Source of the DNA: Apostichopus japonicus
Taxonomy: Eukaryota; Echinodermata; Holothuroidea; Aspidochirotida; Stichopodidae
DNA length: 64,000 bases
Direction of reading: 5' to 3'
NCBI RefSeq assembly: GCF_037975245.1
Contig: NC_092582.1
Span: 22,840,577-22,904,576 of the forward strand
In this document: positions 11,301-62,800 of the stretch, piece by piece
Position numbering within the stretch: the stretch's first letter is position 1
Layout of the letters: every line of letters begins with the position of its first letter
The notes under the pieces: model-generated
Database searches by the model: none
What the model was told of the DNA's origin: nothing
The model's input: only the letters and a program-made list of their open reading frames with translations
Translations under genes and position numbers: made by a program

Positions 11301-14300
11301 AAATAGAAACATGTCATTTATACTGTTGAGGTTACCGTTTTAATTTTCTAGCCCAACAATGATATTTCATATTAATTACACCCAATGCTTTTGTTTTTAT
11401 TCATTTTGATGTCAGTTGCTTTTTGTTCTACATGAAGACAAACCACCCTCTTGGTAAGGCAATTTCACGAATGCATACAAAACAAACATGTTCATCTGAT
11501 ACACGACTTGTTCTTAGAGAACATGAACTGTACACTGACTGCATGCAGCTTTAATATTTAACTAAATGTGTCACTGTTATTGCATATATGTTATTGCATT
11601 AATAAGCACTCACTTGGGATAATTTTTTGGCTAAGTACTGTTTTTTTTCTTTCATATCCCACTTCAGAGCACTTGCACTTGTCATTATGAGCATTACAAA
11701 TGTCATGTGTTTCTATCAGATCAAGGTTAGGAACTGTTTATACTGTCAGTACGAGTGCTTTGAAGCATGATATGGGTGGACAGTATATAGTGGTATTAGC
11801 ATTAGAATCAGATAAAGGTAGGAACTGTTTAAACTGTCAGTATGAGTGCTTTGAAGCATGATATGGGTGGACAGTATAAAGTGGTATTAGCATTAGGGAA
11901 TCGGCTGGTAATTATTTCAGCCAAAGATGAATATTCATGACTTGTTCATGTATATTAATATCTATTAAAGGCACTCATAATACAGGTTCACACTTTGCAT
12001 TCATTGTTAAGTAAAATAAGTTCAACTTTTTCTTATTTTTATTTTTGTTTGGTTAATCAGATGAAGAAGAGGATGATCTGTTCGGGAGGAAGGAGGTCAA
12101 ACCGGTCCAAAAGACACTCCGGTCGGCTCTGTCCCAGCAACTGGAGCAGTATCCGCAACAGGCTAGCAATCCGTTCTCGGAATTTGCAAAGTTCGATGGA
12201 AAGGTAGGTATCGTCACTAATAGCAGTCAATAGGAACTGTTTATACTGTCAGTATGAGTGCTTTGAAGCATGATATGGGTGGACAGTATATATTGGTATT
12301 AGCATTAATTACAGTAGGAAATTGTCCTAGAATTAACTCATACATATGTTTTTACTTCGCTCCTCGCTTATCTGTCTCCCCACAACCTTGGCACCCTCGT
12401 TCTACCGTGCCTAGAATGTCCTGGTAACCTTTCTTAACACTGTGCGCCCTCTATGACCGACCCCTCCGGTCAATGCCCCTCCTCCTTCTCATTCTACCAT
12501 TCGAATAATGATATCATACTAAAAAAATATTAAATAAATTCAATTTTTTTCTTTCTTCAAAAACATATTTACAGTACCTACATTTTAATACACTTTGTTA
12601 ATTCAAACAGTATAAGTTTGCTTTTTAAATCATTTATATTACACCAGAAAGAAAAAACACCCCAAAAGCAGAAACTCTTTGGTTATTGTCATAGGCGTAC
12701 GGGACCATTTCGGTTTGGGGGGGCAGAAACTTTTGTGCCCGAAATTTCCCGTGACACTATCTAAGCGGAGCGCCACCATCGGTTGGCGCGTAGCATACAA
12801 GAATTTTTTTGGCAAAATATGCCTCTCAGATTGCCGGAAATGGCACTTCTGAGGCCTTGCAAGTTGCATCTAGACATTCTTTATTTTATAATCTCACGTT
12901 TAGAACTTTACACTTCCCCAAAAATTTGGTAAATTAGAAGAAGAAAAAATGGTAACATCACTTTGACGGGGAAAACTAGGACAGTATATTTTTTAACTCC
13001 TATTTAAAAGGATACTTATCAGGCTGGTAAAGATCCTTGGAAGTGCAGAAGTCCTGATAGGAAACTTCTAGAGTATAAATCCAAGGTAATCCGGGCGAAT
13101 TTCGCGAAAATTTTTCTAACTCCGAAAAACACAGTGAGACACTTTGTGGGTAGAAAAATGAAGGAAGGCCATTAGGGCCAGTGAGGGTGTACAGTGTTAA
13201 AAGATTACCAGGGCATTCTAGACACGGTAGAATGCGGTGCATAGGTTGTGGGGAGACAGGTAAGTGGGTCACTCGTAAATATATAAACCAGTAAGTTTTA
13301 TAATATTAGAAGAAGAAAAAATGGTAACATCACTTTGACGGGGAAAACTAGGACAGTATATTTTTTAAGCTCCTATTTAGTTACGGTATGTATTATTTTA
13401 ACACAGTACTCAGCTACCCCCAGAAAAACATACATTTTTCAACGACACGTAGGCGGGAAAATGTCACTGTGTCGGGTGAGACTGCAATTTGTCTCACAAT
13501 AAAAGTATAAAAAATAACAAAGAATATGATAAACCTGTACTTTTAGGCTTGTAGGCACTCCCCCCCCCCCCCACCATCCAAGAAAAAGAAAATGTTTCTT
13601 ATATACACTCATGTCTGGGATGTCCAGGTATACAGTTGACTAGTTAGAAAAAAATGTTTACTACGGTTTTTTCACTTCAGAGACTGCTAATATCCATGCA
13701 TGCTTGTCACCACGATTGTGAGCGGCGTTCCCTGTTAATAATTTTGGGAGATAGTGCAAAAAGCGTGGTAGCCCAGATGAGCTGCGCTTACGGTGGTGTT
13801 ACATGGAAATATTCGGGCATCATGATGCTAAATTAAGAAAATCATTAGGCCTATATTAATATTAATGTCACAAAACAAATAACACAGAACGCTCTCCACG
13901 GAATTTTCGGGCAAAAATATGAAAAAGATTCGGGCAAGCTACTACATATTTATATATATATATTTTTTTCTCCTCTTAGGCTGCCCGAATTTTTCAGGAC
14001 TTTTGCCCGAATTTCTTGTCCTCTGGGAAATTTGGGGGGGCAGTCTGCCCCCCCGCCTCGTACGCCTATGGTTATTGTTGTTGTTGTTCTGTCTTGAAAA
14101 CTGTCTATAGAAAGAGAGTAAAACTTCTTACATCAGCCCCCCCAAGTTCTTCATCAAAAAGCCAATTTATATTTTTAAATATTTGATGCGGCCAATTTTT
14201 TCGTCGACTGGAATCATTCTGAGAAAGAAACTAGGTCTAGGTCATGCTCGATGTCCTCTCCAAATTCAACACACTTTCTGTAAGACTCTGGCTTGGAGCA

Positions 14301-17300: not shown

Positions 17301-20300
17301 TCCCCCCACCCCCCTCCCTCTTTATTTTCTTCTTCTGCTTTTTATGGGTTATCAAGAATTGTCAAGAGCTCACTTCTCTCAGGACCGAAGGCGTCTGAAG
17401 AGGAACCTGTGAAACTCGTCAAATATTCATTGCGACGACTGGCCCAGTCATCTTCATATCTTGTTTCTGTCAATCACTCGACTCGGTCGACATCGTCGCC
17501 ATTAATATTCAAAACTTTTCACAGACAGGTCTCTGCTCCGATCATTATCACGACTGCACTTATACGGAATCGTGTTTCACCTCATTTTGTCTCTGTGAAA
17601 ATTGATACTTACATAGTCATTGCTATTATTTTCCCCGCTGCTCCAGTCGCCCCCATCTTATGTATCTTGTTGGTTTAGGGATACCTTCAGAAAACACCAT
17701 CTCGCTGGGATGCTTGCCCCCGCTGGAATTGAGGCGATTGGCTCATCTCTAAATGTGTGATAGACTTGTTAAAGTCACATTTAGGCGAGAGATTATCCAG
17801 TGTACAGTAGTCAATGTGCAGGGAGCCAAATATTATAAAGTTTTGAAACTCATGGAAGTTGTATTATCACGAAGGAAATTTTTATTGTTAATAATTTTAC
17901 AATTATATACAAAAGAAAGAACAGAAATTCCAAAAACGAAAAAGAAGAAAATGGTTTCGTAGGTTTTAAGACATAATTTGATGAACCTAAAATTATCAAA
18001 ACAAGTTTCAAAACAACTTGTTTCTATTTTGTATAATTAGGAGAATATTTCATGTACATTCAAAACACATCCAATAAGTTTTTAAAAAGTGTTAGAGTTT
18101 GGATGGAGGGAAAGATGGACGGGCGGGCTGTCAGTCTGGTGGGGGGGGGGGCGGGCGTGCTGGCCAAAACTAGTAATATTTTAAATTCATGCAACATGCT
18201 CGATGCCTTAGATTGTCTGTGTTTACCGTTGATGGTATTTTCTCTTCTGTTTCTTTATTCTCTAGAGACAGCATTGATAACTACTGTCTGATGATAGCCG
18301 AGGAGGAGGGTGAGGTGGACGATGACTTTCCTGCCCTCGATTGCAAAGAAGCCATCTCTAAATTTGGCTTCAGTACCTTGGCTCTCGTCGAGAAGGCATC
18401 GGTCCTCCCCGATAAGGAATCTCAGGAGTCCGGTAAAGATGAAGCAATAATTGTGAACATGTAAGTATAACTCATCTCATGTCAGAAACTATAGAGAGAT
18501 GGCCTTAGGCATTCACATGTGAATAGATTTGTTTAAATCTGTTGGTAACTCACATGTGAAGATATTGGATATAAGTGGGCAGTCTGGTAGAGGGGGAAAA
18601 TGATTGTGAAGATATGAGTATACTCATCTCATATTAGAAGCTATAGATAGATGGCTTAGGCATTCACATGTGAATACACTTTCATAAATCTGTTAGTAAC
18701 TCACATACGAAGATATTGGATATAAGTGGGCAGTCTGGTACAGAGGGGGCGAAAAAAAATGATTGTGAATATTTGAGTATACTCATCTCATGTAAGAAAC
18801 AATAGGGAGGTGGCTTAGGCATTCACATGTGAATAGATTTTTTTAAATCTCTCTGTAACTCACATGTGAAGATATTGGATTTAATTCGGCAGTTTGTTAA
18901 TACAGGAAAGAAATGATAGCGAACATGCGAGTAGAATCGTCTCATCTGAGAAACCGTAAGGAGACCTTTGGAACGTTGACTTCTCAGAATCGGGAGAGAC
19001 ATTATGAGACACTCATATTGTTGTCCTGCTCTGTCTTTCTTTGTCCTCAGAAAGTCCTCAGATGGAGAGTCCAAGCTTGCGATCGATAATACTCAGGTCA
19101 CTCTCCGAGAGTTGATGAACAAAGCGCTGAAACGGAGGAAGGGAATCATCCCAACGGCAGGTAGAGTCAGCTCAGTTCCGAATGTAGTAAAAATGGAAGT
19201 CACTAAACCTCACCATCATTAATGGTCTCTGCGATGAGAGATAACTGTCATGAACAACTCGCCCCACCCACCCGCCCCTCCATCATTCCCCCCAACCACC
19301 CTCCTCTAAAAGTAGATGACTCAAACCCTACCATGACGAATGGACTCTGTGACAAACAATTTAACCCATACAGCTAAGAAAAATATATCTTATTGCATGT
19401 AGCAGAGATGACAGATATTATGATCCTTCATACACACACACACTCACTCACACACAATGCCTGAAGACTTGATTTAGTCTCAATATGACATCATTGAGCC
19501 ACATGTGCTTCAAATGTTTTGATATCTTTTTTTTCTGCATTCTGCTTTTTAGAGAGACAGGTTGTGTAGTAAGAACCTTTCAACAATAGTGACACACATA
19601 TCCAAAAGATTAGTCTCAAAAAGGTCCAACTTCCTTTCCCCCCCCCCCACCCTCCTTGAAATACAGAATTTGTCATGTTGTCTTTGCACTGTGTTCACAG
19701 TGTAATTGTTTTGTGGACACATGAAGAATATTTTTAGATATCACATTGTAATCACTACATATGACCCCTTGAGAACTTTCACTCTGTAACCTTGAGGATA
19801 AAATTAGAATGATGAAAGTAAAACACGTCTGGAAAAAATGAACTGTCCAAATGAGCCATCTGCACATTTATTTATTTTTCATTTTCAAACGGTTTTTTGT
19901 TTTCTCTGTTTCCTTATGTTTTGAAAGATAAAAGTGCTTTGTTACTAACTGATCCTTTCACTTGTTAGGTCCTGATTACCTGATGGAGAAGGTTAACGAC
20001 CCAGGTGTGTCCCTGGATTTGGACGCTAAGTTGAGTTCGATTGGATGCCTGAACTTTGTGATGGTCAGAGAGCACAGTAAGTTATCACATGTGCGAAGGT
20101 TTGACTCTATTGCCATATATTTTTCATCAGGTTGTATTTTTTTGATATTCTGATTAAAATCTGGTAGTATTCATCCATTACTGGTTACCATGCAGGCCTA
20201 GAATGTCACAATTTTCTGCAACATGCTAAAAAATGCCAGTGCCAAAAAAAACCCAGTTATTTCCAATATCTTTCCTTTAGTAGTAATAGTATTCTACTAC

Positions 20301-26174: not shown

Positions 26175-27735
26175 TGGAGGGGTTAGAGGGAAGGGTAAGA
26201 GGGAGGGGTGTGAGGGAGGGGTTAGAGGGTGGAGAGGGGGTTTAGAGGGAGGGGTAAGAGGGAGGGGTTAGAGGGTGGGGTTAGAGGGAGGGGTTTGAGG
26301 GAGGGGTAAGAGTAAGAGGGTTAGAGGGAGGGGTAAGGGGGTGGGGAGTAGGGCTGGAGAGGGTGGGGTTAGAGGGAGGGGTTTGAGGGAGGGGTTTGAG
26401 GGTGGGGTAAGAGGGTGGGGTTAGAGGGAGGGGTAAGAGGGTGGAGAGGAGGGCTGGAGAGGAGGGTGGGGTTAGAGGGAGGGGTAAGAGGGAGGGGTTA
26501 GAGGGTGGGGTTTGAGGGAGTGGTTAGAGGGAGGGTAAGAGGGTGGGGTTAGAGGGAGGGGTTAGAGAGGGAGGGGTTAGAGGGAGGGATAAGAGGGAGG
26601 GGTTAGAGGGAAGGGTTAGAGGGTGGGGTTAGAGGGAGGGGTTTGAGGGAGGGGTTAGAGGGAGGGGTAAGAGAGAAGGGTAAGAGGGAGGGGTTAGAGG
26701 GTGGGGTTTGAGGGAGTGGTTAGAGGGAGGGTAAGAGGGTGGGGTTAGAGGGAGGGGTTAGAGAGGGAGGGGTTAGAGGGAAGGGTAAGAGGGAGGGGTG
26801 TGAGGGAGGGGTTAGAGGGTGGAGAGGGGGTTTAGAGGGAGGGGTAAGAGGGTGGGGTTAGAGGGAGGGGTAAGAGGGTGGGGAGGAGGGCTGGAGAGGG
26901 TGGGGTTAGAGGGAGGGGTTTGAGGGTGGGGTTAGAGGGAGGGGTAAGAGGGAGGGGTGAGAGGGTGGGGTTAGAGGGTGGGGTTAGAGGGAGGGGTAAG
27001 AGGGTGGAGAGGATGGTGGGGTTAGAGGGAGGGTTAGAGGGAGGGGTTAGAGGGAGGGTAAGAGGGTGGGGTTAGAGGGAGGGTAAGAGAGGGAGGGGTT
27101 AGAGGGAGGGGTTTGAGGGAGGGGTTTGAGGGAGGGGTTAGAGGAGGGTATGAGGGTGGGGTTAGAGGGAGGGGTTAGAGAGGGAGGGGTTAGAGGGAGG
27201 GGATTGAGGGTGGGGTTAGAGGGTGGGGTTAGAGGGAGGGGTTAGAGGGAGGGGTTAGAGGGAGGGGTTAGAGGGTGGGGTTAGAGGGTGGGGTTAGAGG
27301 GTGGGGTTAGAGGGAGGGGTTAGAGGGTGGGGTTAGAGGGAGGGGTTAGAGGGTGGGGTTAGAGGGTGGGGTTAGAGGGAGGGGTTAGAGGGTGGGGTTA
27401 GAGGGAGGGGTTAGAGGGTGGGGTTTGAGGGAGGGGTTAGAGGGAGGGGCAAGAGGGTGGGGTTAGAGGGAGGGGTTTGAGGGAGGGTAAAAGGGAGGGG
27501 TTAGAGGGATGGGTGTGAGGGAGGGGTTAGAGGGTGGAGGTTTAGAGGGAGGGGTTACAGGGAGGGGTAAGTGGGATGGGTTAGAGGGAGGGGTTAGAGG
27601 GTGGGGTTAGAGGGTGTGGTAAGAGGAAGGGGTAAGAGGGAGGGGTAAGTGGAAAGGGTTAGAGGGAGGGGTTAGAGGGTGGGGTTTGAGGAAGGGGTTA
27701 GAGGGAGGGGTTAGAGGGAGGGGGTGGTGGAGGAG
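26175..27735 (+). repeat. 1.56-kb G-rich minisatellite (GGGGTTAGAGGGA/T)
   Basis: Over a hundred 12-14 bp units of GGGGTTAGAGGGAGG or the GGGGTAAGAGGG and GGGGTTTGAGGG variants. The plus strand is almost free of C. Each unit has two runs of three or more G, so the plus strand could form G-quadruplexes. The core TTAGAGGG differs from the metazoan telomere repeat TTAGGG by two inserted bases. It lies about 0.6 kb after the MAPKAP1 stop and about 1.1 kb past the DSN1 stop. Confidence 0.9.
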
Positions 27736-57430: not shown

Positions 57431-57580
57431 GCCAGTTGGGACAGTTTCCTAATGCTAATACCTCTCAAAACTGTCCATCCATATCATGCTTCAAAGCACT
57501 TACACTGACAGCATGAACAGTTCCTAACCTTTTATCTGATATTGATACTGCTCGTACTGACACTACGAGTGCTCTGAAGA
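57431..57580 (-). repeat. Repeat family B, distant single unit
   Basis: Minus-orientation unit with ATCATGCTTCAAAGCACTTA and CAGTTCCTAACCTTTTATCT, followed by a CGTACTGACACTACGAGTGC hairpin. It shows that family B is dispersed and not private to the MAPKAP1 intron. Confidence 0.75.
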
Positions 57581-59895: not shown

Positions 59896-62800
59896 TTATA
59901 CACTATCTTCTTCCTCCTCATCCTCATCTTCTTCTGATCCTGGCTCTCTCCTCTCGGAAGAACTTCTCTCCAATCGGTGGTAGTTTGCACATCGATCGCC
60001 TACCCCAATCCTACGATGGCGGGAGTCAGAGGAGCTCCGTGGGGGCTCCTCGTCACCCAGGAGGAAGTAGACGCGGGACGTACGGTTTTCCCTAAGGCCT
60101 GACGGTGCTTCTTCGATGGTGGGGTTTTGCATAGTTAAACAGTTATTTGGAATGTGCATAGTGTCGTCACTGCAGAAAGTAGGGGAAAAAACAGAAGGTA
60201 ATTCAAAATATCCTTCCCGTTTTTATCTTCTTCGCTCTCAAGACTTTTCATGTATGCATTCAAGTTAATGGAATTTGACTTGATACAGCTTTGTCTATGA
60301 AAACCACAGCACAACGCTGATTCCTGTGAAATTTTAACCTAAAAGACCCGTCTAAATATTGCGATGTCTTTATCTGTCGTGGTTAAAATATTGACATATA
60401 TCAACATTTGAGATAATTCAGATCAAAATATGAAAGCTGCAAAGGCTTTTAACGTCAATCTATATCGAACTCAGAAGAAGAGTGATTATTATTACTTAAC
60501 ATTTTTTATTCTCAGTGTTTAGTTCATCCTCTGGTTTTTTTTTAAGGATTGCGATGAATAAGTCGTAGGGGGAGGGTGGGGTTGCAGGGGGGGGGAAGGG
60601 AAGCTCCCCTGTTCCTTAATATGAGAGAGAACTCACCATGAATTAGGAGGGGGAGGGGGTGGGGTAGGGTTGCAGGTGGGGGAAGGGAAGCTCCCCTGTT
60701 CCTTAATATGAGAGAGAACTCACCATGAATTAGGAGGGGTAGGGTGGGGTAGGGTTGCAGGTGGGGGAAGGGAAGCTTCCCTGTTCCTTTAATATGGGAG
60801 AGAACTCACCATAAATTAGGAGGGGGATGGGGTGGGGTGGGGTAGGGTTGCAGGTGGGGTAAGGGATGCTCCCCTGTTCCTTAATATGAGAGAGAACTCA
60901 CCATAAATTAGGTATCCTCTTCCTTCTTTCCCAGCTCATCTTATTTTTGGAGAGCGGTATACTGCCCTCGTCGTCCATCATGCCCTCTACCTTGACAGGA
61001 TTGTTCTCATTGCTCTTGGCTGGTTTAATCGAGATGTCCCGGACGGCTCGGAATTGGCCGCAGTTGTTCAGGTGCTCATTTTCAAGTCGAAGGAAGTTCC
61101 ACACGAACCGTCTGGCGGGAAGAAGAGGGTGGGGTGGGGTGAGGGGGGGAGGAAGAAGGAGGAAACTGATTTGAGATTGGTTATAAAGGACACTTTAATA
61201 GCTAGAAGATATCAAGGAGTAGGACAGTTGTCCATGGATATAAAAGGACACTAAAGGGAAATGAGGGACACTTAAATAAGGATATGGAGGACATTAAGGA
61301 ATATGGAGGACACTAACAAAAGGATAAGGAGGACATTAACACAAGGATATGAATGCACTAACAAACAACACGGAGGGCACAGAAACAGATATTAACAAGA
61401 AAACCAAGAGGTTTTGAGATTCCTTGGCATCTACAGTAAATATTACTGTAGGTTCATTGTGTACACTTGGTTCCGACCTTTTATGAATATTAATGTAGCA
61501 TCAACACAAATGTTGTTCCTTGCTATCAGCTCAAGTTTGATGAACAAATTGATATTTTAAAGAATTTGCTTTAAGCTCTACCACTCATTAATATTCATGC
61601 CCCCTCATTAATAGTATTGGGGTAGAATTCCGACTTGCAGCTGGAAGGTTAGGGGGTTCGACTCCTGGCCGGGTCATACTGAAGATTTGTTGAAAATCAC
61701 TCTAAGCCCCGCCCTCTCATTAATATTCATGATATTAGCACCAAAATAAATAGGGATCGTCTACTCATGATGGGTAACCTATGTACCAAGAATGAGATCA
61801 ATCCACCTTGGGATTGCTGAGAAAACCTAATTTCAAGCTTTTTTGCGAAAAACAACACTTAGCCCCGCCCCTCATGAATAATAATGAGATTGGACAAACT
61901 GTCACCATATTCATATAGAGGACTTTCCTCTTGTACCACCAAACCAAGTTCCATGAAAATTTAACTTACGGTTGCGAAGATATTGACATTTGTTGAAAAT
62001 CACTCTAAGCCCCGCCCACTCATTAATATTCATGATATTAGCACCAAAATAAATAGGGATCGTCTACTCATGATGGGTAACCTATGTACCAAGAATGAGA
62101 TCAATCCACCTTGGGATTGCTGAGAAAACCTAATTTCAAGCTTTTTTGCGAAAAACAACACTTAGCCCCGCCCCTCATGAATAATAATGAGATTGGACAA
62201 ACTGTCACCATATTCATATAGAGGACTTTCCTCTTGTACCACCAAACCAAGTTCCATGAAAATTTAACTTACGGTTGCGAAGATAATTGACATTTGTTGA
62301 AAATCACTCTAAGCCCCGCCCACTCATTAATATTCATGATATTAGCACCAAAATAAATAGGGATCGTCTACTCATGATGGGTAACCTATGTACCAAGAAT
62401 GAGATCAATCCACCTTGGGATTGCTGAGAAAACCTAATTTCAAGCTTTTTTGCGAAAAACAACACTTAGCCCCGCCCCTCATGAATAATAATGAGATTGG
62501 ACAAACTGTCACCATATTCATATAGAGGACTTTCCTCTTGTACCACCAAACCAAGTTCCATGAAAATTTAACTTACGGTTGCGAAGATATTGACATTTGT
62601 TGAAAATCACTCTAAGCCCCGCCCACTCATTAATATTCATGATATTAGCACCAAAATAAATAGGGATCGTCTACTCATGATGGGTAACCTATGTACCAAG
62701 AATGAGATCAATCTACCTTGGGATTGCTGAGAAAACCTAATTTCAAGCTTGGCGTCACACACACACAGACACACACACACACATACGCACACACACACAC

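Follow-up and report, generated by a model that had tools for sequence, protein, structure and literature searches.

Tandem duplications across splice donors in XPR1 and other genes of Apostichopus japonicus, and their absence at sampled acceptors

The window analysed here is a stretch of 64,000 nucleotides of the Apostichopus japonicus genome (G000:C22:22840577-22904576; 671,581,487 bases in 35 contigs); it contains exons of XPR1/SLC53A1 and MAPKAP1/SIN1, and in each of these genes a tandem array spans an exon end and its splice donor (Table 1). The penultimate coding exon of XPR1 is matched by human SLC53A1 chains over residues 1-65 (E 2.9e-15), and EXS-domain matches upstream on the same contig agree with this identity. 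The acceptor of the last coding exon (TTTCTGCAG/TGACGACAC at 60169; score 7.6) keeps the frame for 91 residues, up to the TAA, and its top local copy reaches just 19/40. Because this exon joins in phase, the first XPR1 donor is the coding donor; the reading frame and homology suggest that it is also the donor that is used.

Table 1. Features of XPR1 and MAPKAP1/SIN1 in the window (positions within the 64,000 nucleotides).
Feature	Positions	Strand	Details
XPR1 donor-spanning tandem array	60567..60912	-	period 87, 3.9 copies; copy 1 has 11 exonic nt
XPR1 main donor GTGAGT	60896..60901	-	first intron base 60901; 9-mer ATG/GTGAGT; downstream exon in phase
XPR1 decoy donor 1	60804..60809	-	9-mer identical to main donor
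XPR1 decoy donor 2	60718..60723	-	9-mer identical to main donor
XPR1 decoy donor 3	60631..60636	-	9-mer identical to main donor
In-frame TGA	60898..60900	-	reached at once on skipping the main donor; unspliced reading ...IPNLW, then stop
XPR1/SLC53A1 penultimate coding exon (RFVWNFLRLENEHLNNCG...KRIPNL)	60902..61111	-	acceptor GCCAG/A, ends TATG, phase 2; from frame, acceptor and donor, and phmmer
XPR1 last intron	60170..60901	-	732 nt, of which the array occupies 335; from donor and acceptor positions and array limits
XPR1 last coding exon (CDDTMHIPNN...EEEEDSV, TAA)	59896..60169	-	open when read in phase from the main donor
MAPKAP1/SIN1 donor-spanning array	18446..18954	+	3.3 copies of period 159; main donor GTAAGT at 18461; GT absent from decoys

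The XPR1 array (Tandem Repeats Finder [TRF] score 538, 90% matches; mean column identity in the unit alignment, 89%) is built from a unit of mostly intronic sequence. The initial annotation had described a ~90-bp unit that spans the exon end and the donor, three intronic copies with an intact GTGAGT, a first decoy that repeats the exon tail exactly and an immediate in-frame stop (TGG TGA) on reading into the intron; all of these stand, the exact repeat over the last 11 bases of the exon. The minus-strand GTGAGT hexamers start at 60901, 60809, 60723 and 60636 (spacings 92, 86 and 87) and all follow ATG; the positions 60804, 60718 and 60631 first given for the decoys are the last bases of their hexamers. 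Copies 3 and 4 differ from the exon tail by one base (TTCATG). Every decoy sits 3' of the in-frame TGA, and by these positions the use of a decoy would place the TGA at least 88 bases ahead of the last junction; under the mammalian rule, a stop that far before the last junction would invite message decay.

The exons that flank the SIN1 array encode a CRIM domain that is over its cut-off (E 4.7e-7) and the SIN1 Ras-binding domain (RBD_SIN1; 26.5 bits, E 6.5e-6), which is just below its cut-off of 27. The SIN1 donor probe matches a downstream copy with a gapped score of 56 (the null maximum for the sampled donors is 27); the ungapped 40-mer statistic that we used for counting overlooks this case (21/40), and gapped alignment catches it. 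In the three SIN1 decoys, read by eye, GT has been replaced differently each time (by AT, TT and GC), that is, the fates of the decoys in the two genes are opposite: XPR1 keeps GT in all of its decoys and SIN1 in 0/3.

We scanned 14 arrays of the window for GTRAGT. An array with a 303-bp unit (61685-62750; 3.5 copies, 99% matches) lies in an XPR1 intron, next to the 87-bp array, and is probably a recent tandem expansion; on the minus strand it has three GTRAGT sites one unit apart, but it is intronic and away from an exon. The window also contains a G-rich minisatellite with a 13-bp unit (GGAGGGGTTAGAG) and ~120 copies (26176-27723) and a 91-bp tandem pair (11715-11896) whose sequence (GTGCTTTGAAGCATGATATGG.TGGACAG) is found again on the other strand ~46 kb away (~57450-57560), probably as a member of a dispersed repeat family. 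In an upstream XPR1 intron (L002, 322-886), similar open frames follow one another in series (ILPEFSPKN...) in what looks like a degenerate tandem array.

For a wider sample, we used 173 exon matches to four protein families at 160 loci elsewhere in the genome. Among the matches listed, 77 of at least 134 were taken for kinases, 5 of at least 19 for ABC proteins, 46 of at least 79 for helicases and 45 of at least 70 for myosins; the choice was manual and favored partial matches that resembled single exons, near the tops of the lists, with near-full-length matches and some others excluded. Splice sites were predicted at the ends of the HMM matches, with weight tables; cut-offs of at least 5 for donors and at least 2 for acceptors left 154 donors and 151 acceptors, and the rest were dropped. 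The 40 bases across each predicted site were then sought as a copy within 700 bp, with a hit defined as at least 33/40 identities.

By this measure, the sequence across the site recurs in the next intron for 11 of the 154 donors, and the other 143 all score 27 or less; none of the 151 acceptors has a copy of this kind within 700 bp (best, 26/40). Gapped alignment gives the same 11 donors and no acceptors, with hits of 64-100 versus shuffled-partner maxima of 27 for donors and 28 for acceptors. The donor rate is 7.1%, about one in fourteen (95% interval 3.6-12.4%), the upper bound for acceptors is 2.4% and the difference is significant (Fisher P 0.0008; 0.0017 with the paralogous loci L016 and L017 counted once). 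The asymmetry is stable at four score thresholds (donors from 5/96 to 11/166, acceptors from 0/99 to 0/161), and it holds with mirrored probes; the median flanks are comparable (702 and 704 bp). It comprises 11 events (10 with the paralogous pair collapsed) in one genome, found in kinases (4), helicases (4) and myosins (3) with none from the five ABC matches, and the rate in families other than these four may differ. The XPR1 array is, then, one of many donor-spanning duplications in the A. japonicus genome: the recurrence that had been proposed from two genes in one window extends to 11/154 donors elsewhere, and no shuffled pairing reaches the score used. By eye and by script, we recognized about 13 donors across the window plus the flank upstream of it; two of these are spanned, so the window is ordinary at the sampled genome rate.

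Eight of the 11 cases are TRF tandem arrays that start in the exon tail, at 7-89 bases from the donor; their first units measure 31-124 bases, and they comprise 1.9-17.4 copies. In L101 a TRF array begins 17 bases past the donor and is accompanied by a 44-base copy of the exon-intron junction; in L089 and L141 two copies are separated by a gap. One more array, in L082, begins 4 bases inside the exon and has a gapped score of 38; it was kept out of the 11. For all nine exon-tail starts (the eight and L082), the distance to the donor is below one unit length; with an overhang shorter than one unit, the exon remains intact and the protein is left unchanged. The copied tails are coding and lie within or adjoin the HMM-matched part, and they contain what we take to be family motifs (e.g., WYRAPEL in kinases, HRVGRTGRA in helicases, and AHRIGQ, DWNP and ARGLD); the direction of copying is thus from exon to intron. 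The L016 and L017 kinase genes lie 3.3 Mb apart on C11 and have near-identical exon ends and a common donor-spanning 70-bp array, with at least 10.8 copies in each.

We consider it probable, on balance, that a general process that duplicates intron pieces, combined with selection, explains both the donor-spanning arrays and the asymmetry with acceptors. The process would tandemly copy pieces of intron, here of ~30-220 bp, and ignore the exon boundary; when a piece includes the exon tail and the donor, the exon would remain intact and an identical donor would be placed downstream. Among equal donors, the 5'-most, attached to the whole exon, would be committed first; the copies would be inert, near-neutral decoys, free to expand into minisatellites. 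A piece that spans an acceptor would instead add an equal acceptor upstream and, with no preference by order, splicing would be split, the protein damaged and the allele lost. For XPR1, the predicted outcome is four identical donors with the full-length protein made from the first alone. The order rule comes from reporters in human cells: in the relevant passages of that study, the first of two consensus tandem donors is predominantly used, no preference is seen between equal tandem acceptors, and both sites lie within a variable region of 147-162 nt (Mikl 2019, PMC6783452). With first-come donors and unordered acceptors, donor duplication should leave splicing unchanged and acceptor duplication should split it, so tolerance of the one and loss of the other are predicted, as seen; by analogy, the first-donor rule of human cells may apply in a sea cucumber.

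The positions at which duplications start and stop (hotspot or TRANSPARENCY) bear on two mutational alternatives. The initial annotation suggested slippage that begins at the exon-intron boundary, and a broader version makes the donor a mutational hotspot, where slippage, R-loops or breakage are seeded at the boundary and arrays grow 3'-ward. In its favor, nine arrays (L082 included) start in the last 100 exonic bases when 4.7 are expected from the intronic density, and 10 of 15 loci with a duplicated probe at +60..+110 also have a duplicated donor. However, this roughly two-fold excess is marginal (P 0.048; 0.10 with paralogs collapsed), and the ratios of exonic overhang to unit show no clustering and do not depart from uniform (KS P 0.19 for 12 independent cases). 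Duplication within the intron is no rarer than at donors: probes at +60..+110 have a copy in 13-15 of 154 cases, and the profile of duplicated 40-mers is flat over the donor, with 6.5% at the junction and 6-11% across the first 600 intronic bases, and drops to 0 by 80 bases inside the exon. Slippage begun at the boundary is thus not borne out, and we judge a donor hotspot unlikely, although the mild excess of exon-tail starts is not explained by the general process that we favor; the lack of array starts more than 100 bp inside an exon in the sample is covered only in part by its unit-length rule. At the other end of the intron, the asymmetry itself might be mutational, that is, tandem growth might be directional or shun acceptor-like pyrimidine tracts. 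Duplicated 40-mers are indeed rare in the last 120 intronic bases (2-7% at -640 to -140, 1-2 of 149 at -120 to -60 and none from -40 to +100 of the acceptor), and no array in the sample crosses or ends past an acceptor by TRF. Against this, arrays remain common as far as about -110 (at -160..-110, 9 of 151 probes are duplicated), and nine TRF arrays end within 130 bases of the acceptor, the two closest at -49 and -21, so growth toward acceptors does happen; these last two also place the barrier at the acceptor itself, a placement with few arrays behind it. The acceptor-side stretch in which duplicates are depleted is the zone of the branch point and pyrimidine tract, as selection predicts, and we hold a purely mutational origin of the asymmetry to be improbable to much the same degree as the hotspot. 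From the profiles, duplication seems to pass through the donor instead of arising there, whereas the acceptor seems to block it.

The decoys suggest another alternative to near-neutral copying, that is, that they are kept by selection, either to serve as spare donors or to offer U1 a binding platform that shields the intron from premature polyadenylation. There are up to 16 decoy copies in an array, most of which score like the main donor, and of the 81 donor copies that a probe picked out across XPR1 and the sampled arrays, 80 keep GT; however, this probe includes the donor and misses diverged copies, those of SIN1 among them. A first count of conservation (donor identity of 99.4% versus 89.6%) was made with a probe that contained the donor, on copies that share ancestry, and the claim of selection based on it was dropped, since better tests gave weaker results and SIN1 had lost GT in 3/3. 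With copies anchored on their flanks only, the donor columns are less variable than random windows of the unit (permutation P 0.0026 without the paralog); a count of variable columns, less swayed by shared ancestry, gives P 0.09. The decoy donors seem somewhat better conserved than neutral copies should be, a point against the explanation that we favor. The proposal that intact decoys could buffer loss of the main donor is not supported: in all 12 cases (XPR1 and 11 sampled) the frame meets a stop after the main donor but ahead of the first decoy, and, provided that the exon truly ends at the first donor as predicted, a decoy cannot restore the full protein in these 12. The stops are not themselves evidence of selection, since 12/12 is near chance (probability 0.12). 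Retention of the decoys by selection is, in our judgment, very unlikely. A bolder version, in which the decoys are not inert, selection keeps arrays of up to 16 intact donors as intronic U1-binding platforms, donor duplication is a widespread route to a new regulatory element and the asymmetry is a genome-scale footprint of first-come donor commitment, strikes us as quite doubtful. For the XPR1 array, a model of intron gain by tandem duplication can also be considered; in potato, as described in PMC4974935, a tandem duplication across an exon boundary at an acceptor yielded a new intron. As in the model described in that report, the array of XPR1 overlaps an exon and has the donor in its first copy. 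However, the hallmark acceptor in the last copy is absent from XPR1, where the array ends at 60567, 397 bp short of the intron end at 60170; its mostly intronic unit and the sampled acceptors (0/151 with a copy) also argue against the model, and we regard it as extremely improbable here.

If the combination of general duplication and selection is correct and ~7% of the donors of an animal precede 1-16 near-identical decoys, splicing routinely makes a hard choice correctly. The genome would then be a large natural experiment on picking one among equal donors, with duplicated acceptors as the missing counterpart, and the donor order rule would become testable outside reporters. The donor copies may lead aligners and annotators to false junction calls; false spliced alignments between repeats are described in PMC10632439, a caution for RNA reads here. 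The literature that we searched, in which prime-sign terms are unsearchable, yielded no account of tandem duplications that differ between donors and acceptors across a genome.

Among known systems, the human IFI6 (6-16, G1P3) minisatellite reportedly has a 12-bp unit and overlaps an exon end, as the first unit of the XPR1 array overlaps the 3' end of its exon by 11 bases. The IFI6 minisatellite supplies several donors, and downstream units are used in mRNA isoforms (Turri et al., 1995, as cited in PMC4526556); each unit of the XPR1 array likewise carries a donor (four ATG/GTGAGT at a period of ~87 bp). The two differ in that the downstream IFI6 donors are, by that citation, used in mRNA, whereas the XPR1 decoys lie behind an in-frame stop, as judged from the genomic sequence alone, and in that IFI6 is one gene, whereas ~7% of the sampled donors are affected in A. 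japonicus. Minisatellites that overlap exon-intron boundaries and alter gene structure are described in human segmental duplications (PMC2812944); there, introns or alternative splicing arise from array variation among recent paralogs, and the pertinent passages do not separate donor from acceptor sides. The potato case (PMC4974935, as far as its account of intron gain goes) shares tandem duplication with ours but differs in that donors are crossed in A. japonicus, with no sign of intron creation. The first-come rule, as set out in PMC6783452, is matched in two respects: the competing donors of XPR1 are equal (identical 9-mers), and duplicated acceptors are missing from the sample (0/151 versus 11/154 donors). 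The settings differ, a reporter library in human cells versus a genomic pattern with up to 16 decoys over hundreds of bases. Taken singly, a donor-spanning array looks like the IFI6 minisatellite; the frequency of such arrays and their asymmetry between donors and acceptors look new.
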